A stretch of 45,582 bases of DNA from a virus. Under the pieces are notes generated by a model. It had not been told where the DNA came from, made no database searches, and saw nothing but the letters and a program-made list of their open reading frames with translations. The translations under genes were made by a program, and so were the position numbers. Position 1 is the first letter of the stretch. Every line of letters starts with the position of its first letter. The stretch lies in IMG/VR virus record IMGVR_UViG_3300030099_001444, positions 1 through 45,582 of that record; one strand, 5' to 3'. This document shows positions 69 through 17,542 of this stretch, piece by piece.

Positions 69-79
69 GTGTCCTCCTA
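1..79. repeat. 79-bp exact direct repeat, left copy
   Basis: Bases 1-79 match 40253-40331 without a mismatch; base 80 (a) differs from 40332 (t). The repeat covers the first codons and ribosome binding site of the 133-aa virion gene and the gap before the connector gene. It implies a unit length of 40,252 bp and is where the two versions of the head block begin to diverge. Confidence 0.95.
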
Positions 80-1725: not shown

Positions 1726-1738
1726 GTTATTTTACCTC

Positions 1739-2683: not shown

Positions 2684-2705
2684 AATCAATAACCTCCTTT
2701 ATTAA

Positions 2706-3227
2706 TTATTGTTTTCTTCTAATGGTTGTTTGTTGTCTATAACGTTTCTCTAGAAACTTAAAATATTCGTTGTCGTCTCCTAGAGGAGCATCATTTTCTG
2801 GTGACAATAAATTACCATCAGGTGTAGGAGAAGGACTACCAGCTACATCCATTTCACCTTTTGGTGCTACTTTTGTAGGTTCAGTCTTTTCTCCTGCTTC
2901 TTCTTTTGTTTCTTCTTTTGTTTCCTCTTTCTTTCTTACTTTATTAAACTTGTCTAATGCTGAAGTAAATCTGTCTTTTACTGGAGCATCTTGTGGTGTT
3001 GCAAGCAATAATGCATCAAATACTTCTACCTCTTCTGGTGTCATATTTGCTACGTATTTTTCGTGTAGTGTAGATGCTTGTACCATATTAGATGTTAACT
3101 CCATTTGTTGTTCTGGTGTCATTTTTGACATATCGACACCCGGTGGAGTTAATTTAGCTGCTGCGTCTTTTGCAGTAATATTTACTCTTGCATCATCACT
3201 GTTGTTCTGGGTTGTTTCTTCTGACAT
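2706..3227 (-). CDS. Scaffolding-like protein, copy A
   Basis: A 173-aa, strongly acidic, Lys/Glu-rich and probably helical protein between portal and capsid, the classic place and composition of a head scaffold. Its middle holds a low-complexity KEETKEETKEEAGEK run, and its end carries a basic RYRQQTTIRRK tail, the type of C-terminus that scaffolds use to bind coat protein. Both copies keep ENDAPLGDD and the basic tail while the middle is very diverged (under half identical to 42952-43485). The gene overlaps the 3' end of the portal gene by 32 bases and has a GGAGG site. Confidence 0.7.
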   Translation of the reverse strand: MSEETTQNNSDDARVNITAKDAAAKLTPPGVDMSKMTPEQQMELTSNMVQASTLHEKYVANMTPEEVEVFDALLLATPQDAPVKDRFTSALDKFNKVRKKEETKEETKEEAGEKTEPTKVAPKGEMDVAGSPSPTPDGNLLSPENDAPLGDDNEYFKFLEKRYRQQTTIRRKQ

Positions 3228-4938
3228 TGTTTATAACCTCCATCATTTCTTCGGGTGACATTTCTTGTTGCCCATTAGCTTGTGTTGGATTTGCCATTGG
3301 GTTAGGTTGTTGCATCGGGTTAGTTGTTTGTTCTTGTTGTTGTCTCAACATATCCATATTTAGGATATCTTCGGGTAATTCATCGAATGACTCAAAGATT
3401 CTTTCTACAAATTTAATTGGGTCAATTGCTGCTGCAACTTGCGGCATGTTACCAATTACATTTACAATTTGCATAAGTTTGTTAAAGTTTGTCATTTTAA
3501 GTACTTTGCCAGATATGCCTCTAACTGTAATTCTAGCTTCTCTAATAATATCCATACGTTCATTAAAAGATAGCCCAAGTAATTGTTTGATAGGATTGTC
3601 TTCGTCTTGTGAATACATAGGTTCATGAGATAGGTCATCAATGTATATTAACTCTGTATGTAATATCATTTCTAACGATGGTTCAATAATACTACGTTCT
3701 ATTTCACTAGCTATGTCTGTAAAGAAACTAGCAGTCTCTTGTGACTTTTGACTAATTTCTTGTGCTGTAGGTCGTCCCTTACTTGTTGGTTGTCCTTGGA
3801 AAAACTCATTTTGAAATGACCTATTTTGTATTAACCTATCTATAACAAATAATAAATTTGTTGCGTTAGGATTTAAATTTTGATTATATACTTGATTAAT
3901 AGTGTTTGGTGCAGTAACTGGATACAAACGTCCAGGAGTAATAGACCCAAACAAATGAGCTTTACCGCTCTCTACATTTGTAGATACTAATTCGTATACT
4001 CCTAACGTTGACATACGAAATGCATCTAATAATAAATTCATGCTTTCTACATAAGACGATAACAAACTTCTTAGTTTCGATATGTAACCTCTACCATAAC
4101 GACCTTGTAATACTTTCATAGGAAATCCAGTTATATATGGAAATGCTCCATTTGGTAAATTGTTTTTACCGTAGAATACAACTGTTTCGTCTCCTGCTAT
4201 AATAAAATGTACGTTGCGGTCTAAGATAGCTCCTCGTTTATCCGAAATATATTTTGCATATACATAGCATAATTTAACTTGTGATAAATGGTTTTCTTCA
4301 TTGTCTCCATTGTACATCATGCTTCTTACTACTTTATTTGTATTGGTCCAACCGTTTACTCTAGCTAATCTTTCATAGTCAGCTAGGCTTACAGTTTTCA
4401 TTTCTATAATATAACTATCGCCATGTGGGTCTAGCATAATGTTAAATGGATTTATAGCAGACACAGAAGTTTTACCCATAATTTCAGTTTGTTCTTCTAT
4501 TTCGCCAGTTCCTTCATTTACTCTTGGAAAAGTTTGCTCATCATATGTATATCTAATTTTTGTATAATATGGACTTGTTAACAAAGAAAATTTTAAGGCA
4601 TCACCAAATATTAATGGGAACTTATTGTTTGATAATACTTGTTGTAATAATTTATTTAATGCACCTTGATATGCTTTGTTAGGATGTTCTATAGTAAAAT
4701 ATTTATTGTCAGTTGACATTAAGATACGTACAAAGAAGTTAGATAATCTAACAACTAAGTTATCAACTACAGGGTCTTTTATTTTTGTTTGCCAATCTAA
4801 TTTATTGTCAAAGTTATATTCATCCATATAAAAACGCATGTTCTCACGCCACTCTTGTGAATTTTGTGTAAACACTGGTTCTGCTTGATTTCTTATGTAG
4901 TTGAAAAAACTTAATATTATTTCTGGTTTTACACTCAA
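3196..4938 (-). CDS. Portal protein, copy A
   Basis: A 580-aa protein directly after the large terminase, with the size and build of podovirus portal (head-to-tail connector) proteins, which form the dodecameric ring for DNA entry. It contains a conserved stretch around RSFQNEFFQGQPTSKGRPTA and a Gln/Pro/Met-rich C-terminus (about 530-580). The start is a TTG (4936-4938) that overlaps the terminase TGA as TTGA. Alignment with the copy at 43460-45172, which uses ATG at the same place, supports the TTG start. The copies are roughly two thirds identical, with most divergence in the N-terminal half and tail. Confidence 0.85.
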   Translation of the reverse strand: MSVKPEIILSFFNYIRNQAEPVFTQNSQEWRENMRFYMDEYNFDNKLDWQTKIKDPVVDNLVVRLSNFFVRILMSTDNKYFTIEHPNKAYQGALNKLLQQVLSNNKFPLIFGDALKFSLLTSPYYTKIRYTYDEQTFPRVNEGTGEIEEQTEIMGKTSVSAINPFNIMLDPHGDSYIIEMKTVSLADYERLARVNGWTNTNKVVRSMMYNGDNEENHLSQVKLCYVYAKYISDKRGAILDRNVHFIIAGDETVVFYGKNNLPNGAFPYITGFPMKVLQGRYGRGYISKLRSLLSSYVESMNLLLDAFRMSTLGVYELVSTNVESGKAHLFGSITPGRLYPVTAPNTINQVYNQNLNPNATNLLFVIDRLIQNRSFQNEFFQGQPTSKGRPTAQEISQKSQETASFFTDIASEIERSIIEPSLEMILHTELIYIDDLSHEPMYSQDEDNPIKQLLGLSFNERMDIIREARITVRGISGKVLKMTNFNKLMQIVNVIGNMPQVAAAIDPIKFVERIFESFDELPEDILNMDMLRQQQEQTTNPMQQPNPMANPTQANGQQEMSPEEMMEVINNVRRNNPEQQ

Positions 4939-6449
4939 TTTAATGTCCTGCCTTTTTGTCCGAATCGCATATCATAATATTCGGGCTCATTTAATGGAAT
5001 GTCTTCTGTATTAACTAATCGTTTAGATATGTAATACAATCCCAACTTAAATGCATCAGATATGTGTTCATAATATTTATCTCGTTTTGGTATACCATTC
5101 TCGTCTCTTGTATAATTTGATAACGTTTCACAAAGTAGTTGTGCGTGTTTAGAATCTATTTGAATTCTTGGTATACCTTCTGCTAACATTTTTAATTCTT
5201 CGTTAGCTAACACTACACTTGTGTCTCGTTTTACATAGACTACATCTGTTTGTAGTCCTTTGTTTTCAAATATCATTGCACTCGTATTAGGAGATACATC
5301 ATATTTTCTGTTTGCATCATGTGGCAATAAATCCATTGTATTTAACAATTTAGGAAATGCTTCTGTTTGTTGTGTAGCAACTTGGTCAATAAAATCTGTT
5401 AATTGTATATTTTTACCAAGCACTGCCATTAATACATTTTTACGCCCAACTTTATCTACTTGAAATATAACGCATGCAGGTCTAGTGTATCCTAAGTCCC
5501 AAGCTCTCCATGCTGTTCGTAATGGGTCGTATTGTTCTGAAAGATTATCTACTACATGCATTTCATTAAAGTCAGGATATACTATTGGACCTTTAGGTTG
5601 TAGCTGAAACTTTCCGCCTTCGCTAAATCTCCAATGCATTGCAGTTTCTGTAAATCTTTTTTTGTATCGCTCTATCTCTTCTTTTTCTAGAGATAAATTA
5701 TCGTATACGTCTATAAAATGAAAACTGGTGTCTTTATCATCGCCTTGTCGTTTATAAATATCTTGTGGTATGTAGTTGCTAGTTGCATCTTCTACAATAA
5801 AACTCATCATCATTTTGCCTGACTTTCTTAACAATCTAGCTAGAATCTCGTCATGCATATTTTGTGGCGGGCACTCGTCAAACCAACAGAAGTCAATACC
5901 AGATGCTTGTAAGTTTTGTGTTTTCATTTCTGCAGATTTAAATTCTAGAATTGTACCATCCCAAAATTTTACAAAATCAATGCATCTGTTTTTACCCCAG
6001 GCTACTTTGCCGCCACGTTTTTCTATACTTTCGATTGATGGTAATAATCCTATATCATTAGGCGTATCAGTAGAAAAAAGGTGAACCTGACTAGACGTCC
6101 TCTGTATATCAAAAGAGGGACTAAATGCCCATATAATTCTGTTGCCATATTTAGGTTTTTGTATTTCATAATGTGGGTGCCAACCTATTACATTGTAAGC
6201 TGTAACAGCAGCACTGCAATATGACTTACCAGAACTATTATTCCCATGTACATACACACTAAAGTTATTATCGTTAACGATGGGCTTTTGTGCAGGGTAC
6301 GGACGAAAGAAGAAAAGGTTGCCATACCAATATAACAACTCTGCTTTAATTTTTGTATCAAAGTTTGCAAATTCTTCATCTGTCATGTTATGGACTTTGT
6401 GCCATAAGGCTAACATTTTTTTGTCCTTAAACCACCAATCTTTTATCAT
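4935..6449 (-). CDS. terL: Terminase large subunit
   Basis: A 504-aa DNA-packaging motor. A Walker A motif GNNSSGKS lies at residues 69-76 and a Walker B CWFDE at about 188-192, preceded by a coupling-type region. The C-terminal RNase H-fold nuclease shows AWDLGYTRPA (acidic residue 1), DLLPHDANRK (acidic residue 2) and YYEHISDAFKLG (acidic residue 3). Length and motif spacing are normal for TerL. The stop overlaps the portal start. A second, diverged C-terminal part of the same gene is cut by the right edge (45169-45582). The gene follows a block of small proteins and is about 1 kb downstream of the putative small subunit. Confidence 0.93.
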   Translation of the reverse strand: MIKDWWFKDKKMLALWHKVHNMTDEEFANFDTKIKAELLYWYGNLFFFRPYPAQKPIVNDNNFSVYVHGNNSSGKSYCSAAVTAYNVIGWHPHYEIQKPKYGNRIIWAFSPSFDIQRTSSQVHLFSTDTPNDIGLLPSIESIEKRGGKVAWGKNRCIDFVKFWDGTILEFKSAEMKTQNLQASGIDFCWFDECPPQNMHDEILARLLRKSGKMMMSFIVEDATSNYIPQDIYKRQGDDKDTSFHFIDVYDNLSLEKEEIERYKKRFTETAMHWRFSEGGKFQLQPKGPIVYPDFNEMHVVDNLSEQYDPLRTAWRAWDLGYTRPACVIFQVDKVGRKNVLMAVLGKNIQLTDFIDQVATQQTEAFPKLLNTMDLLPHDANRKYDVSPNTSAMIFENKGLQTDVVYVKRDTSVVLANEELKMLAEGIPRIQIDSKHAQLLCETLSNYTRDENGIPKRDKYYEHISDAFKLGLYYISKRLVNTEDIPLNEPEYYDMRFGQKGRTLN

Positions 6450-7473: not shown

Positions 7474-7939
7474 ACTCTTCCCAAGCCTCGTCTTGTAATG
7501 TTTCTATGGCTTTATTTAAGTAATTTTGTGTATTTTCTTGTGTTGTTGATGTTAAACTTGCACGCAATTGGTCTTTTAGTACAGCTAATTTAAGTTTATA
7601 GTAAGAAATAACTAACCTATCGTCATTTTTACTGGTCGCCGTTTTAATTTTTGCATCTAATTCTTGTAATGCTGTTTCATATCGTTGAAATATAGTAGAA
7701 CTAAAGTCGCCATCTGCAAAAGATTTAACTGTATCTTCTACTTTAGACATAAATATTTTATATGTTTCACTATCTTTACAAGAATCTAGTATATTCTTAA
7801 CTGTTTTGTGGTCAATCTTTAATTCTCTACCTGTTGCACGTAAAACCCATCCATTTGAGTAGCAACTTTCGAGAAATTTCCACATTTTTTTGTTATAATC
7901 GACTTCTTCTGGAAATAATTGGTTTAATTTATTGTTCAT
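7454..7939 (-). CDS. terS: Putative terminase small subunit
   Basis: A 161-aa mostly helical protein. Residues about 28-52 (SNGWVLRATGRELKIDHKTV and following) look like a helix-turn-helix, followed by a long helical oligomerisation region (about 60-140). This order (HTH, then coiled helices) and length fit phage small terminases, which recognise packaging sites and form a ring on TerL. It lies upstream of terL in the same operon with several small genes in between. Its start overlaps the end of the sigma-like gene by 11 bases. No catalytic motif; assignment by architecture and position. Confidence 0.55.
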   Translation of the reverse strand: MNNKLNQLFPEEVDYNKKMWKFLESCYSNGWVLRATGRELKIDHKTVKNILDSCKDSETYKIFMSKVEDTVKSFADGDFSSTIFQRYETALQELDAKIKTATSKNDDRLVISYYKLKLAVLKDQLRASLTSTTQENTQNYLNKAIETLQDEAWEEYGEKIQ

Positions 7940-8162
7940 AGCCTAACTGTGTCTCCCTTTTGCTTTCTCTGTTACGTCTTTCACGAAATTTACCAATGTA
8001 TTTAGATACACACCACTTATAATCGTTTGGTGTAATGTCCTGTTCAAGTATGTAAACACATGCATCATGCAAAATATCCTCGCAGTCTATTTTCTTTATA
8101 CCATACTTTGCTCCGTTTAGCAAACAATAATCTTTTAGCTCCTGATATTGCATTTCTGTCAT
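7929..8162 (-). CDS. Sigma-70 region 2-like mini-protein
   Basis: The first gene of the leftward late operon, 77 aa. Residues about 24-60 (KIDCEDILHDACVYILEQDI, then NDYKWCVSKYIGKFRERRNR) match the pattern of sigma-70/ECF region 2, where an acidic-aromatic helix is followed by a basic helix with Trp that contacts the -10 element and RNA polymerase. There is no region 4, so it is either a minimal sigma-like factor, an RNA polymerase-binding decoy, or a convergent helical protein. Its position at the head of the late genes would suit late-gene activation; that is inference. Confidence 0.4.
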   Translation of the reverse strand: MTEMQYQELKDYCLLNGAKYGIKKIDCEDILHDACVYILEQDITPNDYKWCVSKYIGKFRERRNRESKRETQLGYEQ

Positions 8163-8212: not shown

Positions 8213-8520
8213 GTTTTATTTATTATATGCATATATATTACACTATAGTTGTTTTAGAGTATATGATACTAAAAGAAACTGGCACTAGTTGCTTACAATT
8301 GGGTGAGCATTGGGCGGCGATGTAACTGCCCGTAATTATTAGATATTTATATATACAATAATTACTTGTGGTTTTAATGAGGAAGAGTGGGAAATCAAAC
8401 CATGTACTTTTATTAGGGGTGTGGGAGGTTGTGGCAATATAGGGGGGGTGCAAAAAAGGTAAATAATTTTTTACAAGTTCGGCAGACAAGGTATGTATAT
8501 TCATTAATTAAAATAATTCT

Positions 8521-8537
8521 GCGGGAGAATCCCGCAA
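8521..8537 (+). repeat. GCGGGA-N3-TCCCGCAA palindrome, copy 1
   Basis: Spacer GAA. It lies 23 bp upstream of the -35 candidate of the first early promoter, where an operator or activator site would act. Six-base arms are perfect; the outer T/A extends them to seven. Confidence 0.85.
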
Positions 8538-8559
8538 TTAATTAATTTTATTTGGGTAC

Positions 8560-8589
8560 TTGATATTATTGCTCCAACAGTCATACTAA
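8560..8589 (+). promoter_or_regulatory. Candidate early promoter of the 187-aa gene
   Basis: TTGATA at 8560-8565 and TACTAA at 8584-8589 with an 18-bp spacer. Transcription would begin near 8597, giving a short leader that contains the TAAGGA ribosome site for the ATG at 8624. This also argues against the upstream in-frame GTG at 8594 as the start. Confidence 0.4.
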
Positions 8590-8623
8590 TAGAGTGAGTA
8601 AGTTAGGTAAGGATAAAAACAAA

Positions 8624-9187
8624 ATGAGATTAAAAGATTATCAAAATACAATTAAGGAAATGCTCCGTGGAGATTCCTTATATCAATCTAACTTCAAAAA
8701 ACTAAGAGGGCTTATGGTTCAAGATTCCAAATACTTAGCGGATAAAAAATATAACTTATCCGTTAAGCATACAGATTGGAATGATGCTACCAAAAAGCTT
8801 GTTAAATCTTGGAAAGTATCACCTAATCATTATGATACAATTTCAAGGGCTTATCGTTCCTCTACAAAGCTTGGAGCTAACGGGAAGCTTAATAAAAAGG
8901 GAATGGCTTTATCCCTAAAATCTATCCAGAATTTAGGCTTAATTGAAGAGTCAAAAAAATCAGGATGGGAAGCTAAAAAACCAGAGGATAGAAAATCATC
9001 AGGGGAAAAACAACCTGATTATGATAGCATCTTGTCAGATGTTGTTGAAAAACTATCCATCTTAGCCGATGCAAAATACAGACCAGACCAGCATAGGCTA
9101 AAATATCTACAAGATAGATTTGATATCTACATGTTAGCTATTGAAAATATCGAAGCTTTTACAACCGTTATCAGCGGTAAAAACTAA
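8624..9187 (+). CDS. Monocistronic first early protein (187 aa), unknown
   Basis: I do not recognise the family. It is a basic, mainly helical 187-aa protein; residues about 60-110 (YDTISRAYRSSTKLGANGKL and on) could form a DNA-binding helical domain, and a charged linker is followed by a second helical domain with LSILADAKYRPDQHR near the C-terminus. It is the first rightward gene, bracketed by its own promoter candidate and a strong intrinsic terminator, with a palindrome copy on each side. That isolation suggests an early regulator, perhaps the protein that binds the palindromes. Start: ATG with TAAGGA upstream; an in-frame GTG at 8594 would add ten residues. Confidence 0.65.
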   Translation: MRLKDYQNTIKEMLRGDSLYQSNFKKLRGLMVQDSKYLADKKYNLSVKHTDWNDATKKLVKSWKVSPNHYDTISRAYRSSTKLGANGKLNKKGMALSLKSIQNLGLIEESKKSGWEAKKPEDRKSSGEKQPDYDSILSDVVEKLSILADAKYRPDQHRLKYLQDRFDIYMLAIENIEAFTTVISGKN

Positions 9188-9214
9188 AAAATTTATAAAA
9201 TCCTAACTACTCAC

Positions 9215-9239
9215 AAGCCCCGCAAGGGGCTTTTTTTTT
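9215..9239 (+). terminator. Strong intrinsic terminator
   Basis: AAGCCCC (9215-9221), a GCAA tetraloop and GGGGCTT (9226-9232) form a seven-pair stem followed by a T-run to 9239. It ends the transcript of the 187-aa gene and separates it from the small-gene operon. Confidence 0.92.
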
Positions 9240-9249
9240 GTCTAATTTT

Positions 9250-9266
9250 GCGGGAAAATCCCGCAA
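9250..9266 (+). repeat. GCGGGA-N3-TCCCGCAA palindrome, copy 2
   Basis: Spacer AAA. It lies 11 bp after the terminator; flanking T and A bases extend the dyad to nine pairs (TTTGCGGGA/TCCCGCAAA), the longest arms of the set. Confidence 0.85.
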
Positions 9267-9456
9267 ATTAAAACTATAAAATCTTAACTTTTGTTATTAT
9301 TAATATTTTGCAGAGGGTACTAGTGTTAACATGAGTAGCAACTGGTCATTTGACTTACTAGTATATTAGTGTATACTTATATGTATATATTAGTTACTAG
9401 TATATACTAGTTATTAGTATTTAATTATATTAGTAAGTATTAACTAGTAATTAGTA
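9267..9456. other. AT-rich intergenic region with repeated ACTAGT words
   Basis: About 190 bp with no gene between two palindrome copies. ACTAGT occurs five times (9319, 9357, 9396, 9406, 9443), and TTACTAGTATAT is repeated at 9355 and 9394, 39 bp apart. The run of TATA/TAGTA steps is easily melted. It could hold promoters, protein sites or the replication origin; none is proven. Confidence 0.5.
9350..9377 (+). promoter_or_regulatory. Candidate promoter of the small-gene/replication operon
   Basis: TTGACT at 9350-9355 and TATACT at 9372-9377 with a 16-bp spacer. It is the best sigma-70-like match upstream of 9495 and would give a leader of about 110 bases containing palindrome copy 3. Confidence 0.45.
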
Positions 9457-9473
9457 GCGGGAAACTCCCGCAA
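9457..9473 (+). repeat. GCGGGA-N3-TCCCGCAA palindrome, copy 3
   Basis: Spacer AAC. It lies 7 bp before the GGAGGTGAG ribosome site of the 92-aa gene, so in RNA it would be a six-pair hairpin close to the translation start. Confidence 0.85.
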
Positions 9474-9494
9474 TACAAATGGAGGTGAGATACC

Positions 9495-9773
9495 ATGAGT
9501 GAATTCCACAATACACTTAGTTATCGTGACCTAGTAAAGGGCGATAAGCTAAAGACTACTCAGTTAAGAGAAGTCGGTGTCGAACAACCTATTACATCCT
9601 ATTTATTGGAGTCACCTAAACAGGGCAAAGGATTAAAACGCACTGTCTTAGTTGATACCAAGGGTACTGAAGTAGGTTTCTTCGATGAGATGGGTTCTAT
9701 CTATGCCAGTCATATAATGGCAGTAGAACGAGATGGCGAGTGGTTGGCAGTAGTTGGTCAACCAGTTGACTAA
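9495..9773 (+). CDS. Small early protein (92 aa), unknown
   Basis: The first gene of the long early operon, with a strong GGAGGTGAG site. It is soluble, with a mixed alpha/beta composition, and no motif that I recognise; the second half (KRTVLVDTKGTEVGFFDEMG) looks like a small beta domain. It is flanked by palindrome copies 3 and 4, the latter starting right at its stop codon. Early small proteins in this position often modify host functions, but no role is assigned. Confidence 0.7.
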   Translation: MSEFHNTLSYRDLVKGDKLKTTQLREVGVEQPITSYLLESPKQGKGLKRTVLVDTKGTEVGFFDEMGSIYASHIMAVERDGEWLAVVGQPVD

Positions 9774-9790
9774 GCGGGAATATCCCGCAA
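9774..9790 (+). repeat. GCGGGA-N3-TCCCGCAA palindrome, copy 4
   Basis: Spacer ATA. It starts directly after the TAA stop of the 92-aa gene and precedes the AGGAGGTGAG site of the next gene, filling most of the intercistronic gap. Confidence 0.85.
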
Positions 9791-9821
9791 TAATACTATA
9801 CTAAAAAGGAGGTGAGTTCCT

Positions 9822-10244
9822 ATGGGTAGATACTATGATGGTGACATTGAAGGCAAGTTCTGGTTTGCTGTACAGAGTAGTAATGATGCGAACCATTTCG
9901 GTGTTCGAGGTACATACTTTGAGCACGGGAAAGATGGCGAGAAAAAGTACGGCGAAGCCGAGTATTATGATGGATTAGAGTATTACTTCGGCGAAGAGCA
10001 TCTGTCTGGTGTTGTCACTAAACTTAATCAAATCGTTGACATGTTGGGCTCTTACAAAACTGAGTTAGACAAGTTTTTCAAAGAGAACAATGGGTACAAT
10101 GATGAAATGATAGTAGAACAAACCAATATACCAGCAGAGGAAGTACACAAATCTTTGATGCTGTACGCTAGGTATGGTTTAGGTGTAGAGATTCGTGATT
10201 GTATCATGAAGAACGGGCAATGTGCCTTTGATGCAGAATTATAG
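9822..10244 (+). CDS. Conserved phage protein (140 aa), unknown
   Basis: The protein begins MGRYYDGDIEGKFWFAVQSS, a beginning I associate with a conserved hypothetical protein of marine phages. The N-terminal half is aromatic and acidic (Tyr/Phe/Glu-rich); the C-terminal half is helical with a LSGVVTKLNQIVDMLG segment. There is no catalytic motif. The ribosome site is AGGAGGTGAG. It lies in the early small-gene operon. Function unknown. Confidence 0.7.
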   Translation: MGRYYDGDIEGKFWFAVQSSNDANHFGVRGTYFEHGKDGEKKYGEAEYYDGLEYYFGEEHLSGVVTKLNQIVDMLGSYKTELDKFFKENNGYNDEMIVEQTNIPAEEVHKSLMLYARYGLGVEIRDCIMKNGQCAFDAEL

Positions 10245-10254
10245 GAGGTAAATT

Positions 10255-10428
10255 ATGCAACCAGATAAGAAAGATGCTGAGTTACTAGAGAAGTGTGCTG
10301 ACATGCTTAACGAATTGTATAATTATATTCATATCGTAAGCACCACACATCACAAACGCATGCGACTAGATGAAAGGTTTGAAGCACTCAGAGCAGACAT
10401 CAAGTCAATAAAAAAATTACTAAAATAA
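10255..10428 (+). CDS. Small helical protein (57 aa)
   Basis: A short ORF with an ATAGGAGGTAAATT leader, starting ten bases after the previous stop. It is Lys/Glu-rich, with heptad-like hydrophobics (LLEKCADMLNELYNYI, then a second helix to the end), so a helical hairpin or coiled coil is likely. No family recognised. Gap filling, the strong ribosome site and the tight spacing to the next gene support it. Confidence 0.65.
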   Translation: MQPDKKDAELLEKCADMLNELYNYIHIVSTTHHKRMRLDERFEALRADIKSIKKLLK

Positions 10429-10441
10429 GGAGGGAAGTGAG

Positions 10442-10687
10442 ATGCCTAGAGTAAAAGAATTACCACTACATCACATTGATAACTACATGTTTGATAGATA
10501 CCTTGCGGTTCAATACGAAGGTTCATATAATATGTACAGTCAAGAAGCTCGTGAGATGGCAGAGTTAACTCGTGATGAACACTTTACTATCATTAAAAAC
10601 TATGCAAGATTGATAGAACTGTTTCCACAAGTATACGAGCACTATGCTGGAAGAGATTCACTACACGATTACGACATTGAAGACTAA
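10442..10687 (+). CDS. Small early protein (81 aa), unknown
   Basis: A soluble, acidic 81-aa protein with many Tyr and His residues (HHIDNYMFDRYLAVQYEGSY). It has a GGAGGGAAGTGAG ribosome site. Helical C-terminal half. No recognised domain; one of the run of early small genes. Confidence 0.65.
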   Translation: MPRVKELPLHHIDNYMFDRYLAVQYEGSYNMYSQEAREMAELTRDEHFTIIKNYARLIELFPQVYEHYAGRDSLHDYDIED

Positions 10688-10705
10688 CAAAAGGAGGATT
10701 GGTAC

Positions 10706-10972
10706 ATGAGTAGACATTACCCAGTATGGAATATAATCAACTCATGTGCCTACCAGGGCAGTAAATCATACGGTGTAAAAGAAACTGGTGAAGTTGCAGT
10801 CAGGGTAGGTACAAGTGCAAAGAACTCTCATCACTTTGTTAAACATGTAGTTACACATCGTTTGCATGACAATGGTGACAGAGAGTACCGCTTTTATGTA
10901 GACAACGTAAATATTAAACGTGCAATACTACGTAGAGATGCGGTAGAACTAGAAGAATTACCACCAGTATAG
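10706..10972 (+). CDS. Small early protein (88 aa), unknown
   Basis: A basic 88-aa protein with several histidines around HHFVKHVVTHRLHDNGDREY, followed by a beta-strand pattern and a basic helix (NIKRAILRRDAVELEE). The ribosome site is AAAGGAGGATTGG. The His-rich stretch could bind metal, but the spacing does not match a zinc finger. Function unknown. Confidence 0.65.
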   Translation: MSRHYPVWNIINSCAYQGSKSYGVKETGEVAVRVGTSAKNSHHFVKHVVTHRLHDNGDREYRFYVDNVNIKRAILRRDAVELEELPPV

Positions 10973-10981
10973 GAGGATACT

Positions 10982-11209
10982 ATGGAAACACCATTAACAA
11001 ACCCATATAGTTTTAATTTTGGTGCAGACTTGTACGAATACTTAGAACGCTGTTATCCAGAGTATGCAGAGTGTCATGTCAGGTGGCACTCATGTATATG
11101 TCTGTTGATGAAAAGGAGAAAACTAGACCCGATACCTAGTCATGCAGTACATGTATGGTTACGAGATATCGGTGTAATTAGAAGTCCCTATTCCAAAGGA
11201 GGAAGATAA
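10982..11209 (+). CDS. Small early protein (75 aa), unknown
   Basis: A 75-aa protein with a Cys/His-containing centre (residues about 24-38: CYPEYAECHVRWHSCICLLM) that could coordinate a metal. It has an AGGAGG site, and its stop overlaps the next start as TAATG, so the two are coupled. No family recognised. Confidence 0.65.
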   Translation: METPLTNPYSFNFGADLYEYLERCYPEYAECHVRWHSCICLLMKRRKLDPIPSHAVHVWLRDIGVIRSPYSKGGR

Positions 11210-11382
11210 TGAAGAAAGGTAAGAAACCTATCAAGCGAATTGATTTAGATATCAAACCAGATGGTACAACTAAAGTATTAGATGTATGGTCTAGTGGTGA
11301 ATTAATCAATGAAGACAGACTTAATTCATTGAGCAAGTCAGAGCTTGACAAAGTAGCCAAGATACTAGATAAAATAAAATAA
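11209..11382 (+). CDS. Small basic protein (57 aa), unknown
   Basis: Starts at the ATG overlapping the previous TAA. Lys-rich N-terminus (MKKGKKPIKRIDLDIKPDG) and a helical C-terminal half (SLSKSELDKVAKILDKI). The AAAGGAGGAAG site lies within the preceding gene. Palindrome copy 5 begins at the base after its stop codon. Confidence 0.65.
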   Translation: MKKGKKPIKRIDLDIKPDGTTKVLDVWSSGELINEDRLNSLSKSELDKVAKILDKIK

Positions 11383-11399
11383 GCGGGAACTTCCCGCAA
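11383..11399 (+). repeat. GCGGGA-N3-TCCCGCAA palindrome, copy 5
   Basis: Spacer ACT. It sits exactly between a stop codon (TAA 11380-11382) and the AAGGAGG ribosome site of the next gene, whose AAGG begins within the conserved AA of the element. Confidence 0.85.
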
Positions 11400-11409
11400 G
11401 GAGGTAAAC

Positions 11410-11589
11410 ATGGACAAAGAGATAAAAACATACAAAGTATATCTCAGTAATATTCACTATTACGAAACCACTGTCGAAGCTAGTGATGAAGAGGAAGCCT
11501 ATCAGATAGCATCTGAGTTAACTTATGATGAGACAGGACCTGAAGTGTCAACTAATGGTTTTGAAGTAGACGAAATACAGGAGGACTAG
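11410..11589 (+). CDS. Small acidic protein (59 aa), DpnD/PcfM-like build
   Basis: A very acidic 59-aa protein. The pattern of a first strand (IKTYKVYLSNIHYYETTVEA), then SDEEEAYQIA helix, then an acidic strand resembles the short DpnD/PcfM-like phage proteins; the 65-aa gene at 11877 shows a similar build, so the two may be distant paralogs. The ribosome site is AAGGAGGTAAAC. Function unknown. Confidence 0.6.
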   Translation: MDKEIKTYKVYLSNIHYYETTVEASDEEEAYQIASELTYDETGPEVSTNGFEVDEIQED

Positions 11590-11591
11590 TG

Positions 11592-11702
11592 ATGAAAAAA
11601 ATAGAAAGGTGGATAAAAGAAAATCAATTTATTGTTGGACTAGTATTTTTTCTTGTTGGATTAATAATGATTGTACAAGGACTAGTCTATATGTTATATT
11701 AA
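11592..11702 (+). CDS. Single-span membrane micropeptide (36 aa)
   Basis: MKKIERWIKENQ is followed by about 20 hydrophobic residues ending VYMLY, so it is a one-pass inner-membrane peptide with a positive cytoplasmic N-terminus. The ribosome site is AGGAGGACTAGTG in the end of the upstream gene. Similar micropeptides in phages act as membrane-associated host or superinfection modulators; that is only an analogy. Confidence 0.6.
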   Translation: MKKIERWIKENQFIVGLVFFLVGLIMIVQGLVYMLY

Positions 11703-11725
11703 AAAAGACAGGGAGGTGTCATTGT

Positions 11726-11887
11726 ATGAGTAATGAATACAACGAAAGATTCTTAGAGTCACGATACGAAGAGTATCTTGAACAAGGGTATGACCCCAAG
11801 GATGCCGAGATTATGGCTCGTGAAGACTTGGAACATGATAATTATGTACCAGAGAAGGAAGATGGAGAGGAGAAAGATGATGAGTAA
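11726..11887 (+). CDS. Acidic 53-aa protein, unknown
   Basis: Begins at the ATG at 11726 behind GGGAGGTGTC; an upstream in-frame start at 11609 lies inside the membrane micropeptide gene and is not used. The protein is Glu/Asp/Tyr-rich with a helix (NERFLESRYEEYLEQGYDPK) and an acidic tail (EKEDGEEKDDE). Its mimicry-like acidity fits an early inhibitor, without proof. Confidence 0.6.
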   Translation: MSNEYNERFLESRYEEYLEQGYDPKDAEIMAREDLEHDNYVPEKEDGEEKDDE

Positions 11888-12077
11888 AAAATTCGTAATA
11901 AGAGCTAGTGAAGTCATAGAATACGTTGGGTTTTATGAAGCTGATAACATGGCGGAGGCAAAGGGTATGTTCTCTAGACAAGTATCAGAAGTAACTTGGA
12001 ACTCTCATAAAGATGTCGAAGTAGAGTACAACGGATTCCAATGGGATATCTGTGAGGAGGTCAAAGATGGAGAATAA
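11877..12077 (+). CDS. Small protein (65-66 aa), DpnD/PcfM-like build
   Basis: The start is ATG 11877 or the adjoining ATG 11880; a GGAGAGG site lies 6-9 bases upstream. A 66-aa protein with strand-helix-strand pattern (KKFVIRASEVIEYVGFYEAD, then MAEAKGMF) like the product of 11410. The start overlaps the preceding gene and the stop overlaps the next one, so it is fully embedded in the coupled small-gene run. Confidence 0.6.
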   Translation: MMSKKFVIRASEVIEYVGFYEADNMAEAKGMFSRQVSEVTWNSHKDVEVEYNGFQWDICEEVKDGE

Positions 12078-12252
12078 ATCAACAACAGACTGGTCTATGT
12101 CTATTAGATTTACAGCTAACACAATAGAGAATGGCATAGAAAAAGATTATTATTCTTTTGGTGGTGAAGTGCTTGATGAGAAGACATTGCAAGCAGTAAA
12201 AGAAGCCGTGCTTAAAGCTATGATAGACTATGATAGAAAGAGAGCAAAGTAA
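12067..12252 (+). CDS. Small early protein (61 aa), unknown
   Basis: Start at ATG 12067 after GAGGAGGTC; five upstream codons in frame overlap the previous gene and are not needed. Soluble, with a beta part (STTDWSMSIRFTANTIENG) and a helical end (LQAVKEAVLKAMIDYDRK). The stop overlaps the next ATG as TAATG. No family recognised. Confidence 0.6.
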   Translation: MENKSTTDWSMSIRFTANTIENGIEKDYYSFGGEVLDEKTLQAVKEAVLKAMIDYDRKRAK

Positions 12253-12479
12253 TGGGTAACAAAAGTAATAGAATAAATGGAATGAACGCTGCGTTTTACA
12301 AGTTAGTATATTATCCACCAACAGGTTATGACTTTACGCAAAACAGAAATGAAACGTTTTTTGAACGAATGCAAAAAAGTGAGGAGGTAAGTAATGCAAA
12401 AACAAGAAAAACAAGGAATGGAGATAACATTGCTAGCACTGCACGGCGTAAGAAGAAGACTAGAAAGAGAAAAATTTAA
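12252..12479 (+). CDS. Small protein (75 aa) with basic tail, overlapping next gene
   Basis: Coupled to the upstream stop (TAATG). The first 50 residues (with YYPPTGYDFTQNRNETFFER) look like normal protein; the last 28 are a Lys/Arg/Thr-rich tail ending KKKTRKRKI that is read from the start of the next gene in another frame. The 86-base overlap is unusually long here. Either the basic tail is functional or the gene has lost an earlier stop. Confidence 0.5.
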   Translation: MGNKSNRINGMNAAFYKLVYYPPTGYDFTQNRNETFFERMQKSEEVSNAKTRKTRNGDNIASTARRKKKTRKRKI

Positions 12480-12627
12480 TTACTATTGCGAGCTATGTCA
12501 GTGTGATGAAGTACAAGAAGAGTATTGGGACTGGTGGCAACGTGACCCAATAGGATTTTTTTCACATGTCAAAAATCTAAGAGAGCCCATACTATTAGAA
12601 CTAGTACAGTGGTCAAAGGAATTTTGA
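12394..12627 (+). CDS. Small protein (77 aa), unknown
   Basis: Starts at ATG 12394 behind a GTGAGGAGGTAAGT site inside the preceding gene. It is acidic and Trp-rich, with a CELCQCDEVQEEYWDWWQRD segment (two close Cys pairs) and a C-terminal helix. No family recognised. Its stop overlaps the next ATG (TGATG). Confidence 0.6.
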   Translation: MQKQEKQGMEITLLALHGVRRRLEREKFNYYCELCQCDEVQEEYWDWWQRDPIGFFSHVKNLREPILLELVQWSKEF

Positions 12628-12683
12628 TGAGCGAGATTATGTTAGTAGTATTGATAATATTATTTTTAGTAGGAGGTGAGTAA
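12627..12683 (+). CDS. Possible 18-aa membrane micropeptide
   Basis: An ORF of 18 codons, MSEIMLVVLIILFLVGGE, whose start overlaps the previous stop (TGATG) and whose last codons encode the AGGAGGTGAG site of the following gene. It is almost entirely hydrophobic and could be a membrane peptide, or it could be only a translated leader that couples the neighbours. Confidence 0.35.
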   Translation: MSEIMLVVLIILFLVGGE

Positions 12684-12684
12684 C

Positions 12685-12885
12685 ATGAGCTATTACAATG
12701 ACAAAAATGCTGAAGCCAGAGCACAAGCAGAAAAAGAAAAGCAAGAAGGTATAACTATATTAGCTATTATAAATTCTGCTATTGCTATGGAACAACACGG
12801 TTTAAATATTGATAATGTAAAACGTAATGTTGAACAGCTGTTAGAGTACAGAGATGAATTGTTATATGGAAAAGGAGAAGAGTAA
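12685..12885 (+). CDS. Small helical protein (66 aa)
   Basis: Start at ATG 12685, spaced correctly from AGGAGGTGAG; the in-frame GTG at 12676 lies within that site. Glu/Ala/Lys-rich and helical (ARAQAEKEKQEG, then IDNVKRNVEQLLEYRDELL). It directly precedes the helicase and overlaps its start by one base, so a helicase-associated role is possible but unproven. Confidence 0.6.
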   Translation: MSYYNDKNAEARAQAEKEKQEGITILAIINSAIAMEQHGLNIDNVKRNVEQLLEYRDELLYGKGEE

Positions 12886-13931
12886 TGGACAACGCATACC
12901 TAAACTTGATGACTTTTCTATTAAAAAAAGACAAGCGACAAGTATTAGAACCTATAGTAAAGAAAATTAAATTAGATGCACCATTTGATATAGTGTTAGA
13001 TGAGTTGATGCTAAGTAAAACTGACATTACCAAAGCGGACTTACTTGACTTTGTTAAGGGTAAACTTAACTCAACAGAGTTTAACTATCTCAAAGGTATG
13101 TCAGAACGAGTAACCACTGCAGTAGGGTATAGGTCTATTCATTACTTACAAACACTTACTCAACTTAAAGAAGTAGGTGACGTACTTAAATCACGAGTGC
13201 GACCAGAAAAGAAATTAGAAAAAATAAATGTAGCGTCTGATGTCAGAGCTATTACAACACAAGCAGTAGCTAAACCTATAAGTAAATTTATATCTGACAC
13301 AACTCACGACTTGTTAAGTTTATTTTATTATGGAATAAGTAGAGAAGAACTAGCTGTGCTGTGTGCATTTAGTGGACGTGGTAAAACTACTATACTGCTA
13401 TCACTAGTACGCCAAGCTATACGAGATGGACTTAAAGTTTTATTTGTTTCTGTACAGGATTTTTCTGAGGGTATGTTAAAAGAACGTATAGCAACTGCTC
13501 ATGAGTTTCCTGATTTTTATGCCGTGTGTTCATCTTCATTTGGAATACCTGAGTTAGAAGTAGAAGTAGATTCTTTAATGCCTGATGTAGTATTTCTAGA
13601 TTACATGAGTGTATTAGATGCACCGCCAAACAAAGAAAAAAGATTTCAATTAGAATATATATCTGAGAATCTTAAACGTGTAGCTCAAAATAAAAAGATA
13701 GCTATAGTTACTGCACACCAGCTAAATGCTGATGTAAATTTACCAAGTGAAAAAGAACTGTTAGAAGCAAAGGCAGGACTTTTAGCTCACACAGACTTAG
13801 TGCTAGGTATAGGTGGTGACATGTACGATACGGTGCGAAATGTTACTACAATTAAATCAAGAAGAGCAGCACCAGTAGATGTATTCAAAGTTGATATTGA
13901 CTTTGCAAATCTAAACACATCTATTTTTTAG
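12885..13931 (+). CDS. DnaB-like replicative helicase
   Basis: A 348-aa protein. The N-terminal part (1-150) is helical and does not match the canonical DnaB N-domain, while the C-terminal part is a RecA-type ATPase: Walker A SGRGKTT at about 163-169, Walker B VVFLDY around residue 238, and TAHQLN near 275, all as in the DnaB/gp4 helicase core. Expected to unwind DNA 5'-3' at the phage fork in front of the family A polymerase. It starts the replication cassette (helicase, nuclease, primase, polymerase) and is shorter than host DnaB (about 450-470 aa). Confidence 0.85.
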   Translation: MDNAYLNLMTFLLKKDKRQVLEPIVKKIKLDAPFDIVLDELMLSKTDITKADLLDFVKGKLNSTEFNYLKGMSERVTTAVGYRSIHYLQTLTQLKEVGDVLKSRVRPEKKLEKINVASDVRAITTQAVAKPISKFISDTTHDLLSLFYYGISREELAVLCAFSGRGKTTILLSLVRQAIRDGLKVLFVSVQDFSEGMLKERIATAHEFPDFYAVCSSSFGIPELEVEVDSLMPDVVFLDYMSVLDAPPNKEKRFQLEYISENLKRVAQNKKIAIVTAHQLNADVNLPSEKELLEAKAGLLAHTDLVLGIGGDMYDTVRNVTTIKSRRAAPVDVFKVDIDFANLNTSIF

Positions 13932-13939
13932 GAGAATAA

Positions 13940-14470
13940 ATGCAAGTATCAGAATCATCACCAGCTAATTACAATATGGATGTTCGTAATCTTAGTGGTC
14001 AAATAGCAAAACATGCGTTTGCAAAAGAAATATTACGTAAGCCTGGATGGGACGTAGCTTTTCCAGACTCACACATATCAGTCGTAGATGCGTTTGCATA
14101 CAGTAAAGACACAACACTACGTTTTCAAATTAAGTATGCTGGAGTGTGTAAGTGCCCAACTAGTGGTGGTAGTAAAGTTATAATTCCGTTGCGTAATAGT
14201 TATCGTAAAGATTACAGAGGCGTACTAGGTCACAAGGTATTGTATTTTGAAAATAATATTGATTGTATATATTGTTTTATACCTGATTTAGATAAAGGTA
14301 TTTTTATAACTGGTAACATGGTAAAACCAGGGCAGACTATGTTTCATTTAAGAGTGTCTGCTCCTATGAGATTAAGTAAACGCACACGTATGTGGTATCA
14401 TCACACAGATTTTAACCCGGAGGTATTTGATGGGAGTAGTAATCGCAATGGCTCATTGTCCGTTTCATGA
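13940..14470 (+). CDS. PD-(D/E)XK endonuclease-like protein
   Basis: A 176-aa protein with the signature of a restriction-type nuclease fold: an N-terminal helix with E30, D50 in SHISVVDAF, and Q63-x-K65 in RFQIKYAG, i.e. E...D...QxK. The core ends at about residue 120; the C-terminal 40 residues are basic. It lies between helicase and primase in the replication cassette, with AGGAG before the ATG, and its last 41 bases overlap the primase gene. Possible roles are recombination, host DNA degradation or genome maturation. No DNA-specificity domain is visible. Confidence 0.6.
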   Translation: MQVSESSPANYNMDVRNLSGQIAKHAFAKEILRKPGWDVAFPDSHISVVDAFAYSKDTTLRFQIKYAGVCKCPTSGGSKVIIPLRNSYRKDYRGVLGHKVLYFENNIDCIYCFIPDLDKGIFITGNMVKPGQTMFHLRVSAPMRLSKRTRMWYHHTDFNPEVFDGSSNRNGSLSVS

Positions 14471-15209
14471 CGATAGAACGCCATCATTAGCAATATATGA
14501 AGATTCATACCATTGTTTTGGTTGTAAGAAAACAGGTAAGTTAGAGCCTTGGATGACAGAACTAATTAGTGGTGTTGATATTCGTGAGAAAACAACGCCA
14601 ACACTAGACACTACTAAATATAGTTATCAGTTGAGTGATAATGTAAAAAAGTTTTTTGAAGATAGGCAGATACTTGAATACGCTACTGTTAATTATCTTG
14701 TAAAAGGCAAGGGAGATGTAGTGGTGTTACCATGTTATGACATTGATATGCAAGTTACTGGTTATCAAAAACGTAATGTTGTACGTAAAGCTAAAAACAA
14801 ATATATAACAGTGCCTATAAATAATATATACCCTGATTATTCTTGGTGTCCTTTTCTTGAAAACGCATCGCTAACAGACAACATAACAGACAGAAGCAGA
14901 GTTATTATTATAGTAGAATCAATAGTAGATGGGTTGTTTGTAAATAGGGTAGGTTTTGATGCTATTGCGTTACTAGGTACTAGCCCACGAGGCTCTCTAA
15001 TACCTCTACTTGCATCTTATGGATTGTCATGTATTATATTTTTTGACCCTGATGCAATAGTGGTAGCCTCTTATCTTAATGATAAATTTAATGCTCATGG
15101 TCTAAATAGTGTGGTACTAGATTCGGATGTAAAACCTTATGAGTGCGACCGAAGTACTTTATATAGAACAATAACAAAACTAAAAAAGGAGTTACAAAAT
15201 GGTGAGTAA
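14430..15209 (+). CDS. DNA primase (CHC2 zinc finger plus Toprim)
   Basis: A 259-aa primase. C10-x2-H13 (HCPFHDD) and C29-x2-C32 (YHCFGC) form the CHC2 zinc ribbon starting almost at the N-terminus. The Toprim core has a catalytic Glu in IIIVESIVDGL near residue 163 and DPDA near 206. It is shorter than DnaG and without a helicase domain, which is encoded separately at 12885. Start: ATG 14430 fits CCGGAGG at 14417-14423; a TTG three bases before is less likely. It overlaps both neighbouring genes. Confidence 0.88.
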   Translation: MGVVIAMAHCPFHDDRTPSLAIYEDSYHCFGCKKTGKLEPWMTELISGVDIREKTTPTLDTTKYSYQLSDNVKKFFEDRQILEYATVNYLVKGKGDVVVLPCYDIDMQVTGYQKRNVVRKAKNKYITVPINNIYPDYSWCPFLENASLTDNITDRSRVIIIVESIVDGLFVNRVGFDAIALLGTSPRGSLIPLLASYGLSCIIFFDPDAIVVASYLNDKFNAHGLNSVVLDSDVKPYECDRSTLYRTITKLKKELQNGE

Positions 15210-15429
15210 ATTTATTGATGACGTAACAGCTCAAATAATGACAGGACTTGAGTATGATAAACGTAGACTGAAATTTAAGTATGCCTTAGAAGAAGCTATA
15301 GTGCGTAGAATATTGGTAAGAAATTTAGATGCTTTATTACGTGAGTTACAGGAGAAGGTATGTCGTGGTGAGGCGGTGATAAATGACGTTCAAAGAACGG
15401 AAGAAGAAGTATCCAAGTTATCCAGATAA
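15199..15429 (+). CDS. Small helical protein (76 aa) between primase and polymerase
   Basis: A basic, almost fully helical 76-aa protein (ALEEAIVRRILVRNLDALLR, then an EELQEK helix) that overlaps the primase end by 11 bases and the polymerase start by 47. It is part of the coupled replication block; an accessory role to primase or polymerase is possible. No motif recognised. Confidence 0.55.
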   Translation: MVSKFIDDVTAQIMTGLEYDKRRLKFKYALEEAIVRRILVRNLDALLRELQEKVCRGEAVINDVQRTEEEVSKLSR

Positions 15430-17542
15430 TTGTTTGAAATGTGGTTTATTTGAAAATTGTAAAAGTTATAAATTAAAATACAAAAAAGTACAATCAGGTA
15501 ATAAAACTATTTTATTTGTTTTGGATACACCGTCACAATTTTATGACCACAGTGGTTCAATGAAAAATAGTAAAGTATTAAACACATTAGAAAAACTATC
15601 AAAGAACTGGTTACAAGAATTTAATGTGTATGTAACTCATGCTACTAAATGTAGACAAGCTGAGGGTACAATAAAGATTGCATCTATACGAGAGTGTAGT
15701 GTGTATTTAATCGAAGACATAGAAAAAATAAAACCAAATGTTGTTATAACTTTTGGTGATACGGCAAAGAAAGCAATGCAGGAATATTGCGGGAGATTCC
15801 CGCAAGATATCCAGGTACATAATGCTCCGTCAATAGTTGTTGATAATCAGACAACAGTTACGGAGGTATTGAATAGAGTGTGGCATGAACTTCACAACGT
15901 ATTGTTACCGATACCACTTACGACTAATTTGTCTAGAGTGTTATTGCAAGCAGCTAAATCAAAGTTGATAGCGTTAGACTTTGAGTGGAATCCTGATACA
16001 GGGATTGCACATTCGGTAGGACTAGCAGCAGGCACGGTAGCTGGTGGGTTTGTGTTGGACAGCCACACTGAAAAGGCAATAGAGAATATATTAATCGATG
16101 AGTCGATGACTATAGTCGGGCATAACATAGCGGAAGATGTACGACGAGTTATAGATAAATTTGGTACACGTATTCGTTGTCAATTCATAGACACACTGTT
16201 GTTAAAACGCCAGTTAGTTTTTAACTTACGACAAGGTGGTCTCAAATATTTTGCGGAGCGTTATTTACTGTTAGAAAATTATTGGAAAGAAATCAGTATA
16301 GATGATTTTACTTCTCCTTCACCTAAATTATTAAAGTATACTGGTGGTGATGCTTGGGCTACCTTATGTTTATATAATAAATTCAAACAAGATTTTAAGA
16401 ACGAATGGAAACATATGGAATATGCACGTGCTATTGATATGGAAATGATTTTACCTGTAGCTTATATGGTCCATGGTGGCATAAAGATAGATAAGAAAAA
16501 ATTAAAAAAACAATTGTCATCATTAAAATTACAAGAGAATAAATTGTTAAGTGAGTTTGAAACTATTCATAAAATAAATCCTGCAAGTCCAGCACAAGTA
16601 TTAGAGTTGTTAAAAAAACGTAAGCATAAAATTAAAAGTACAGGTATCGATGCTTTAAGTAAATTAAATGATGAGGTTGTAGATAAGTTAATTCAGTATC
16701 GCAAGCTGAGTAAATTAACAACCACCTATTTAGATAAATTAGGTGACATGACAGATGAGAATGATTTGATACATTGTAATTTACATTTAGCAAATACCAT
16801 TACGGGACGCATGAGTTCAAGTAATCCCAACATGCAGAACATACCTCCTGACGTGCGTCCCATATTTTCTAGTGTATTCGGTGATGATGGTAATTTAGTT
16901 ACAGTTGATGCAAGTCAAAGCGAATTACGATGTTTAGCATATTTAAGTAATAGTAAATATCTTATTGATGCATACAATGCTGGTACTGATATGCACACAC
17001 TAGTGTCACAATTAGCTGGAATATCTAGAAAGAACGCTAAAGTATTAAACTTTGCATTTGTGTACGGCTCTTCAGAGTTTGGATTAAAAAATCAACTAGT
17101 AAAAGCTGGTGTAGATATGTCAAAAGCAGATGATGTAGTTCAAAGTTTTATTAGTACAATGGATAAATTAGGAATACGTGAGTACCAGCAAAGGCTACTT
17201 GACAAAGCAAAAAAATTAAATTATATTTATTCTCCATATGGTCGTGTTGGTACTAGACTTAATCCTACTCAAGTTGTAAATTTTCCTATTCAATCGTTTA
17301 GTGCTGACTTAAATAAAATGAGAATTATTTATGTATTCAATCGACTTAGAGAAGAGAATCTAATATCACGTATTTGGTTAGAGTTTCATGATGCTATGGA
17401 GTTAGATATATACACACCAGAAAAAAAGAAAGTCTACAGTATTGTAGAAGAATTAGATTTAACAATACCCGATGTATTAAACAAAGGTATTGAAATACAA
17501 CTGCCTTTGGATGTCAAAGAGAATGGCGTCAACTGGCAATAG
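15383..17542 (+). CDS. polA: Family A DNA polymerase with N-terminal uracil-DNA-glycosylase-like domain
   Basis: A 719-aa replicative polymerase. Residues 1-175 resemble family 4 uracil-DNA glycosylases: cysteines C17, C20, C90 and C105 match the Fe-S ligand spacing, and HNAPS (146-150) recalls the HPS motif, but the usual GEAPG catalytic loop is replaced by LDTPSQFYDHSG. The 3'-5' exonuclease has D199/E201, N248/D252 and Y319/D323. The polymerase domain has TGRMSSSNPNMQNIPP, motif A with D509, motif B with R549, K553, F557 and Y561, and motif C H669-D670 followed by Ala in place of the usual Glu. F557 is equivalent to Pol I Phe762. Palindrome copy 6 lies inside the gene at 15789-15805. Confidence 0.9.
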   Translation: MTFKERKKKYPSYPDNCLKCGLFENCKSYKLKYKKVQSGNKTILFVLDTPSQFYDHSGSMKNSKVLNTLEKLSKNWLQEFNVYVTHATKCRQAEGTIKIASIRECSVYLIEDIEKIKPNVVITFGDTAKKAMQEYCGRFPQDIQVHNAPSIVVDNQTTVTEVLNRVWHELHNVLLPIPLTTNLSRVLLQAAKSKLIALDFEWNPDTGIAHSVGLAAGTVAGGFVLDSHTEKAIENILIDESMTIVGHNIAEDVRRVIDKFGTRIRCQFIDTLLLKRQLVFNLRQGGLKYFAERYLLLENYWKEISIDDFTSPSPKLLKYTGGDAWATLCLYNKFKQDFKNEWKHMEYARAIDMEMILPVAYMVHGGIKIDKKKLKKQLSSLKLQENKLLSEFETIHKINPASPAQVLELLKKRKHKIKSTGIDALSKLNDEVVDKLIQYRKLSKLTTTYLDKLGDMTDENDLIHCNLHLANTITGRMSSSNPNMQNIPPDVRPIFSSVFGDDGNLVTVDASQSELRCLAYLSNSKYLIDAYNAGTDMHTLVSQLAGISRKNAKVLNFAFVYGSSEFGLKNQLVKAGVDMSKADDVVQSFISTMDKLGIREYQQRLLDKAKKLNYIYSPYGRVGTRLNPTQVVNFPIQSFSADLNKMRIIYVFNRLREENLISRIWLEFHDAMELDIYTPEKKKVYSIVEELDLTIPDVLNKGIEIQLPLDVKENGVNWQ
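15789..15805 (+). repeat. GCGGGA-N3-TCCCGCAA palindrome, copy 6 (inside polymerase gene)
   Basis: Spacer GAT; arms extend to eight pairs (TTGCGGGA/TCCCGCAA). In frame it encodes CGRFPQ at residues 136-141, between the glycosylase-like strands, so the repeat is tolerated in a variable loop. Confidence 0.85.

Follow-up and report, generated by a model that had tools for sequence, protein, structure and literature searches.

The nut boxB elements of phage lambda, found in early operons close to a terminator, are 15-nt dyads of hairpin size and need a specific loop. Among dispersed DNA operators, the stoperators of the L5-clade (Cluster A) mycobacteriophages lie mostly off promoters and have a genome-specific consensus that varies with the repressor; they are asymmetric 13-bp sites, oriented with transcription, present in 20-30 copies per genome and recognized by a monomeric repressor (PMC6550527). 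The Bacillus phage SPbeta has SPBRE, a short repeated intergenic element located in promoter regions and bound by the phage-coded master repressor MrpR, a protein with the tyrosine-recombinase fold (PMC10516654). In plasmid RK2, the OB operators are repeated both near and far from promoters and serve global repression by KorB, a ParB-type CTPase clamp with the partner KorA (PMC11790492). Here, we describe a set of 17-bp palindromes in the early arm of the virus in IMG/VR record IMGVR_UViG_3300030099_001444, the entire analyzed stretch of which (45,582 bases, 34% G+C) is called the window below. Considered together with their counterparts in related phages, these palindromes are, in our assessment, probably DNA operators for a symmetric dimer encoded by the phage, most likely the 187-aa protein p187, which would repress early genes and whose specificity would have diversified together with that of its sites.

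A scan of the window for GCGGGA-N3-TCCCGC returned exactly six copies, starting at 8521, 9250, 9457, 9774, 11383 and 15789, and no seventh is present across its 45.6 kb even when two mismatches are allowed. These are precisely the six perfect copies that an earlier note, made from the letters of this DNA alone, had reported, and its judgment that they are unexpected by chance is borne out: with two mismatches allowed, the mean over 100 dinucleotide shuffles was 0.13 copies, none of them reaching six, while simple composition predicts 0.0001 exact copies. As it had also observed, five of the six lie between genes and two stand directly after TAA stop codons (9774 after that of p92, which ends at 9773, and 11383 after that of p57b, which ends at 11382); the copy at 15789 falls within the polymerase open reading frame at 15383-17542. 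With one further base on each side, the putative operators, to which no strand is assigned, are:

8520-8536, no strand: putative operator site 1, TGCGGGA-GAA-TCCCGCA, upstream of p187, with an equivalent in the relatives G001, G003 and G004
9249-9265, no strand: putative operator site 2, TGCGGGA-AAA-TCCCGCA, just 3' of the p187 terminator
9456-9472, no strand: putative operator site 3, AGCGGGA-AAC-TCCCGCA, just 5' of the Shine-Dalgarno sequence of p92
9773-9789, no strand: putative operator site 4, AGCGGGA-ATA-TCCCGCA, overlapping the final base of the p92 stop codon and before p140
11382-11398, no strand: putative operator site 5, AGCGGGA-ACT-TCCCGCA, between p57b and the Shine-Dalgarno sequence of p59
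15788-15804, no strand: putative operator site 6, TGCGGGA-GAT-TCCCGCA, inside the polymerase gene

The dinucleotide AA follows directly 3' of all six copies, as had been noted before, but the orientation that was read from it is much less secure. Of the 12 sites in the window and G003 taken together, every one has A on its right flank, whereas on the left 7 have T and 5 have A; four of these five A's are the final base of a TAA stop. The mirror-image TT on the left is kept in whole or in half at most window copies; because its loss is mostly due to stop codons, the one-sided AA constitutes weak evidence for orientation. The full element is best read as the palindrome TTGCGGGA-N3-TCCCGCAA, with a left side eroded by overlapping stop codons. 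Ordinary terminators, which the same reader had set aside, are ruled out: the sense strand of the sites has no T-run, and p187 and site 2 are separated by a genuine terminator.

Relatives were gathered from IMG/VR by polymerase, helicase and terminase searches and are metagenomic contigs. The four closest (G001-G004), with polymerases 89-92% identical to that of the window, have sites at the same places. Each genome uses a single version of the half-site in all its sites, and this version differs between genomes:

TGCGGGA, with a spacer of three bases (N3): the window, G003 and G004
AGCGGGA, N3: G001 and G002
GTCGGGA, N3: G005, G006 and G011
GTCGGTA, N3: G014
TCGGGTA, N3: G015, G016, G017 and G022
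GGGTA(C), in the form GGGTA-N3..5-TACCC: G012 and the second phage of contig G007 (G007b)

An unbiased count of dyads ranks these motifs first in every site-bearing genome tested. Sites with 0-2 mismatches are numerous in relaxed scans but nearly absent when the half-sites are shuffled, and the load amounts to 4-15 sites per genome. Throughout the window's clade the spacer is three, as it is for the TCGGGTA sites (the latter scanned at spacer 3). In the relatives with TCGGGTA or GGGTAC half-sites, the sites occupy both arms, including the coding parts of leftward late genes (portal-like p570, p456); the earlier claim that they belong to the early arm alone is thus true of the window, where the rightward early arm holds all six, but not of these genomes. 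The sites are neither absent from close relatives nor distributed at random in them, the two outcomes that the earlier note had named as speaking against a dedicated function. No comparable repeated dyad was found in a sister clade (G008, G010, G013 and G007a; polymerase 46-49% identical). Pattern scans of IMG/VR gave mostly lone single matches, and several copies occurred only in relatives among the matches listed. Named phages are only remote matches, and a terminase search of GTDB genomes for a host returned no match.

The differences between the versions are concerted and symmetric. G011 and G014 show ~88-96% DNA identity over a shared 11 kb, and all four of their sites differ solely by a G to T change and its mirror, C to A; the remaining 15 of 17 positions are identical, with the centers CTG, CTG, CTA and CAG, and most flanks are unchanged. 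Both halves of a two-fold symmetric site have altered together in each of the four instances, as in a classical symmetric operator. In the polymerase gene, the window, G001, G003 and G006 share the codon position of the site in the versions TGCGGGA, AGCGGGA and GTCGGGA, with the encoded residues altered accordingly. Likewise, a site directly precedes p59 in the window, G001, G003 and G006, and also in G012 and G007b, where p59 sits behind DnaB. Given the concerted symmetric change at shared positions, a sequence-specific, two-fold symmetric trans-acting factor is needed. Coevolution with such a partner is the explanation that predicts the pattern, whereas mobility, chance and purely structural selection do not. 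A single ancestral polymerase-gene site for all the genomes was considered and dropped: the site of G012 and G007b lies 36 alignment columns downstream of that in the window, so the two were probably acquired separately. The G011 polymerase has an 8-residue gap where site 6 stands in the window.

We infer that the partner is a protein, that this protein is p187 and that its binding represses. The features on which this proposal centers are:

8624-9187, plus strand: p187, the candidate cognate DNA-binding regulator, 187 aa, lysine-rich and predicted to be helical
9215-9232, plus strand: intrinsic terminator, AAGCCCCGCAAGGGGCTT followed by a T-run, directly 3' of p187

The p187 gene lies between sites 1 and 2, and in every site-bearing genome that covers its slot, sites flank this slot or overlap it. 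Compared with its homologs in G001 and G003, p187 shows 53-59% identity (69-73% over the N-terminal 115 residues, with a far more variable C-terminus); for most replication and packaging genes, identity to those of the relatives is 75-98%. In G011 and G014 this slot encodes a 240-aa protein, and in G012, G007b, G016 and G017 proteins of 230-270 aa; the sites in these genomes lie around or inside the start of the slot gene. Identity between slot proteins reaches 88% for close relatives and is hardly recognizable between subgroups. Pairwise shuffles support distant homology of p187 (labeled G000 in this comparison) with the slot proteins of G012 (z = 4.9; 0/200 shuffles) and G007b (z = 4.2). The sister clade that lacks sites has different genes in the slot region and no recognizable slot protein.

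Several observations weigh against p187, or against a rigid symmetric dimer, as the partner. Some other small early proteins are as divergent as p187 and co-occur with the sites, and the divergence of p187 does not follow the site version cleanly: G003, with the same half-site, has 59% identity and G001, with another, has 53%. The slot protein of G011 and G014 was not clearly related to p187 or to the G012 and G007b proteins in the pairwise shuffles, and no link among the three groups of slot proteins emerged when their profiles were compared. Domain searches of p187 against Pfam, PHROG and PDB gave no match. AlphaFold2 produced helical models, that of p187 being poor (pLDDT 59) and that of the G012 protein reaching pLDDT 65 (better in residues 60-160); fold searches with both models against PDB and BFVD returned no match. 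Finally, GGGTA and TACCC are separated by 3, 4 or 5 bases in the GGGTAC clade, which is unusual for a rigid dimer; no longer spacers were found. In this clade the sites with spacer 3 or 5 are nearly all coding, and most of the clearly intergenic ones have spacer 4, a tendency that depends on automatic gene calls; in coding sequence, a shift of the spacer by one base at the spacer 3/5 sites amounts to a frame shift. The slot proteins, including the G012 type, are likewise without a match in Pfam, PHROGs and PDB sequence searches, and no relatives of p187 were found among named phages. Residues 54-80 of p187 look helix-turn-helix-like by eye, which no tool confirmed.

The earlier note had offered two models, an operator dyad read by a dimeric regulator of the phage, for which it suggested the 187-aa protein, and an RNA triloop hairpin; the former has emerged the better supported and the latter is now disfavored. 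As RNA, the sites would be triloop hairpins in early transcripts that a phage protein binds or cleaves for translation control, mRNA processing or nut-like antitermination. To this would fit that five of the six sites lie in presumably transcribed regions, several of them directly 5' of a Shine-Dalgarno sequence, that every window copy lies in one arm, that the terminator between p187 and site 2 would suit antitermination and that the 3-5 nt spacers of the GGGTAC clade have the size of small loops. Yet the mismatched arms lack the expected preference for G-U: among the 46 mismatched arm pairs in imperfect sites of 11 genomes, 6 are G-T, 9 A-C and 31 never-wobble, against a random-substitution expectation of 1/6, 1/6 and 4/6, so that G-T pairs (6/46) stand at the chance level where a hairpin would tolerate G-U and avoid non-pairing changes; homologous sites are included more than once in this count, which makes it a tendency from non-independent samples. 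Moreover, the loop sequence is free, no loop exceeds 5 nt, the promoter predicted for p187 is downstream of site 1, relatives carry sites in the coding regions of late genes, an Rfam search of the sites found no known RNA family, and all arms of a genome switch at once to one new sequence rather than drifting with preserved pairing. Covariation of the arms, proposed earlier as support for RNA structure, does not discriminate between the two, because a symmetric DNA site covaries just like a hairpin. Thus, the absence of a G-U preference, the late-gene coding sites and the sequence-specific arms around a free center fit DNA operators better, and we regard RNA hairpins as unlikely. The half-site centers are 10 bp, or about one helical turn, apart, a distance that suits a dimer seated on a single face of the helix.

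If the sites are operators, they might serve another regulator, either a different small early protein of the phage or a host regulator with host-dependent specificity, an option that we consider the strongest of the alternatives though still improbable. The small early genes p59, p75b, p76 and p140 evolve fast and are found together with the sites, and p59 shows 95% identity in G003, which has the same half-site, but 46% and 58% in G001 and G006, which have others; the absence of a host from the GTDB terminase search also leaves room for a host factor. However, no other gene has flanking sites in its promoter region as consistently as the p187 slot, a host factor would need to differ between the hosts of G011 and G014, close relatives with about 90% identity, and sites within phage polymerase and structural genes would be odd for it. 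Dispersed palindromes, some within genes, further recall parS and OB, suggesting loading or centromere sites of a ParB/KorB-like sliding clamp, with plasmid-like maintenance and long-range silencing; we think this highly improbable. A profile of the G012-type proteins weakly matches the KorB structures 1r71 and 8qa8 (E 0.026 and 0.046), but these matches are non-significant and, as an unrelated ribosomal protein scores better (E 0.009), we treat them only as a lead; the single-sequence search was empty, p187 itself gave no KorB match, a ParB domain was absent by Pfam and ParA (PF13614) was absent from 14 records. Least credible of all is that the sites are mobile palindromic repeats, resembling REP or RPE, that were dispersed through insertion: the polymerase copy does constitute an 8-residue insertion relative to G011, but there is no larger element around the 17 bp, copy positions are non-random and they are common to relatives while the sequence switches in concert. 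Mobile repeats are largely refuted by this conservation of positions despite sequence change. As a separate observation, p59 (11410-11589) is a small acidic protein with a site kept 5' of its gene in six genomes, and it is possibly a second player such as an antirepressor.

In the operator model that we favor, a symmetric dimer of the slot protein would read the 17-bp operator through the half-site TGCGGGA around its free 3-bp center. It would occupy gene starts and the interiors of early operons, mostly away from promoters, and, once bound, would repress initiation or block elongation of the early genes, its own region included. The outcome might be that early expression is limited or shut off, that related phages are excluded or that a prophage is kept in a non-integrated state, while the specificities of regulator and site would diversify jointly among relatives. 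Its likeliest main target is a leader that is nearly invariant in relatives and bracketed by sites 2 and 3:

9344-9456, no strand: AT-rich noncoding leader of ~110 nt with TAGTA repeats, between sites 2 and 3
9350-9377, plus strand: promoter-like TTGACT-N16-TATACT within the conserved leader, upstream of site 3

The near-invariance of the leader holds for the window, G001, G003 and G006, and parts of it are kept in G011 and G014; the TTGACT-N16-TATACT element is conserved in G001, G003 and G006. The leader is possibly an early promoter or a replication origin.

More tentatively, the slot proteins may constitute an undescribed family of phage DNA-binding regulators with their own dispersed palindromic operators, in phages without a detected integrase, which would have undergone repeated joint switches of specificity, including the two-base symmetric switch and a change of spacer, to yield a heteroimmune-like series. 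Integrase (PF00589), resolvase and ParA were not found in 14 records, several of which are incomplete. If correct, this would provide a natural series of heteroimmune-like types and catch a whole-genome concerted change of operators at intermediate steps, as is rarely possible. Close relatives are one mirror-image change apart, and distant ones a full half-site and spacer change, rendering the route of a specificity switch directly testable. It would also suggest a stoperator-like global regulator in apparently non-integrating phages, a group of which no cultured member was found, and point to a regulator family missing from Pfam, PHROGs and PDB sequence searches.

The early arm of the window extends rightward between about 8.6 and 20.1 kb; it encodes a DnaB-like helicase, a primase, a Cas4-like exonuclease and a polymerase (15383-17542) in which a uracil-DNA-glycosylase-like N-terminal domain is followed by a 3'-5' exonuclease and a family A polymerase domain (UDG-PolA); the late genes run leftward. 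A leftward 77-aa protein (7929-8162), present in nearly all relatives, resembles a fragment of sigma-70 region 2 by eye and has no Pfam or PHROG match. In the sister clade, the early region (G008 28642-32838, G013 9496-12563 and G007 26561-29612) has MoxR-type AAA ATPase-like and VWA/metallopeptidase-like genes, as read from the sequences, in place of many small genes. The segments 1-5400 and 40250-45582 of the window are syntenic, diverged copies of the same late genes (71-83% nucleotide identity), and the best match shifts from G004 to the G007/G010 group beyond ~36 kb; two related phages have probably been joined in the window, as a chimera or in tandem. The site-bearing early arm lies well away from the contig junction and shares synteny with several independent contigs. 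A second case of joined genomes is the 83.7-kb contig IMGVR_UViG_3300030060_002972 (L225-L229), in which two different phages of the group stand head to tail, with two polymerases that are 48% and 55% identical to that of the window.

Returning to the described systems, the hairpin-sized dyads in early operons with a terminator near them resemble lambda boxB, but the present sites have three free central bases between two sequence-specific arms. A phage-specific consensus, common to all the sites of a genome and varying between relatives, is what the L5 stoperators also display; unlike those asymmetric, oriented sites, however, the present ones are perfect or near-perfect 17-bp palindromes in 4-15 copies per genome, and their candidate regulator has no Pfam or PHROG match and is unrelated to the L5 repressor, with neither integrase nor resolvase to indicate a temperate lifestyle. 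SPBRE and MrpR differ in that none of 14 phage records has a PF00589 match, with positive controls, and in that the sites here are mostly inside operons. As for KorB, Pfam showed no ParB domain in these phages, a ParA partner was not found in the 14 records, and the similarity to the KorB sequence is non-significant. We set the palindromes apart from all three because the defining points fail or lack support: site symmetry and regulator homology for L5, the recombinase fold for MrpR, and the ParB domain and ParA for KorB. On this comparison, we would file them as dispersed phage operators that appear to follow the logic of the L5 stoperators, SPBRE/MrpR and the KorB operators, yet stand outside each of these systems.

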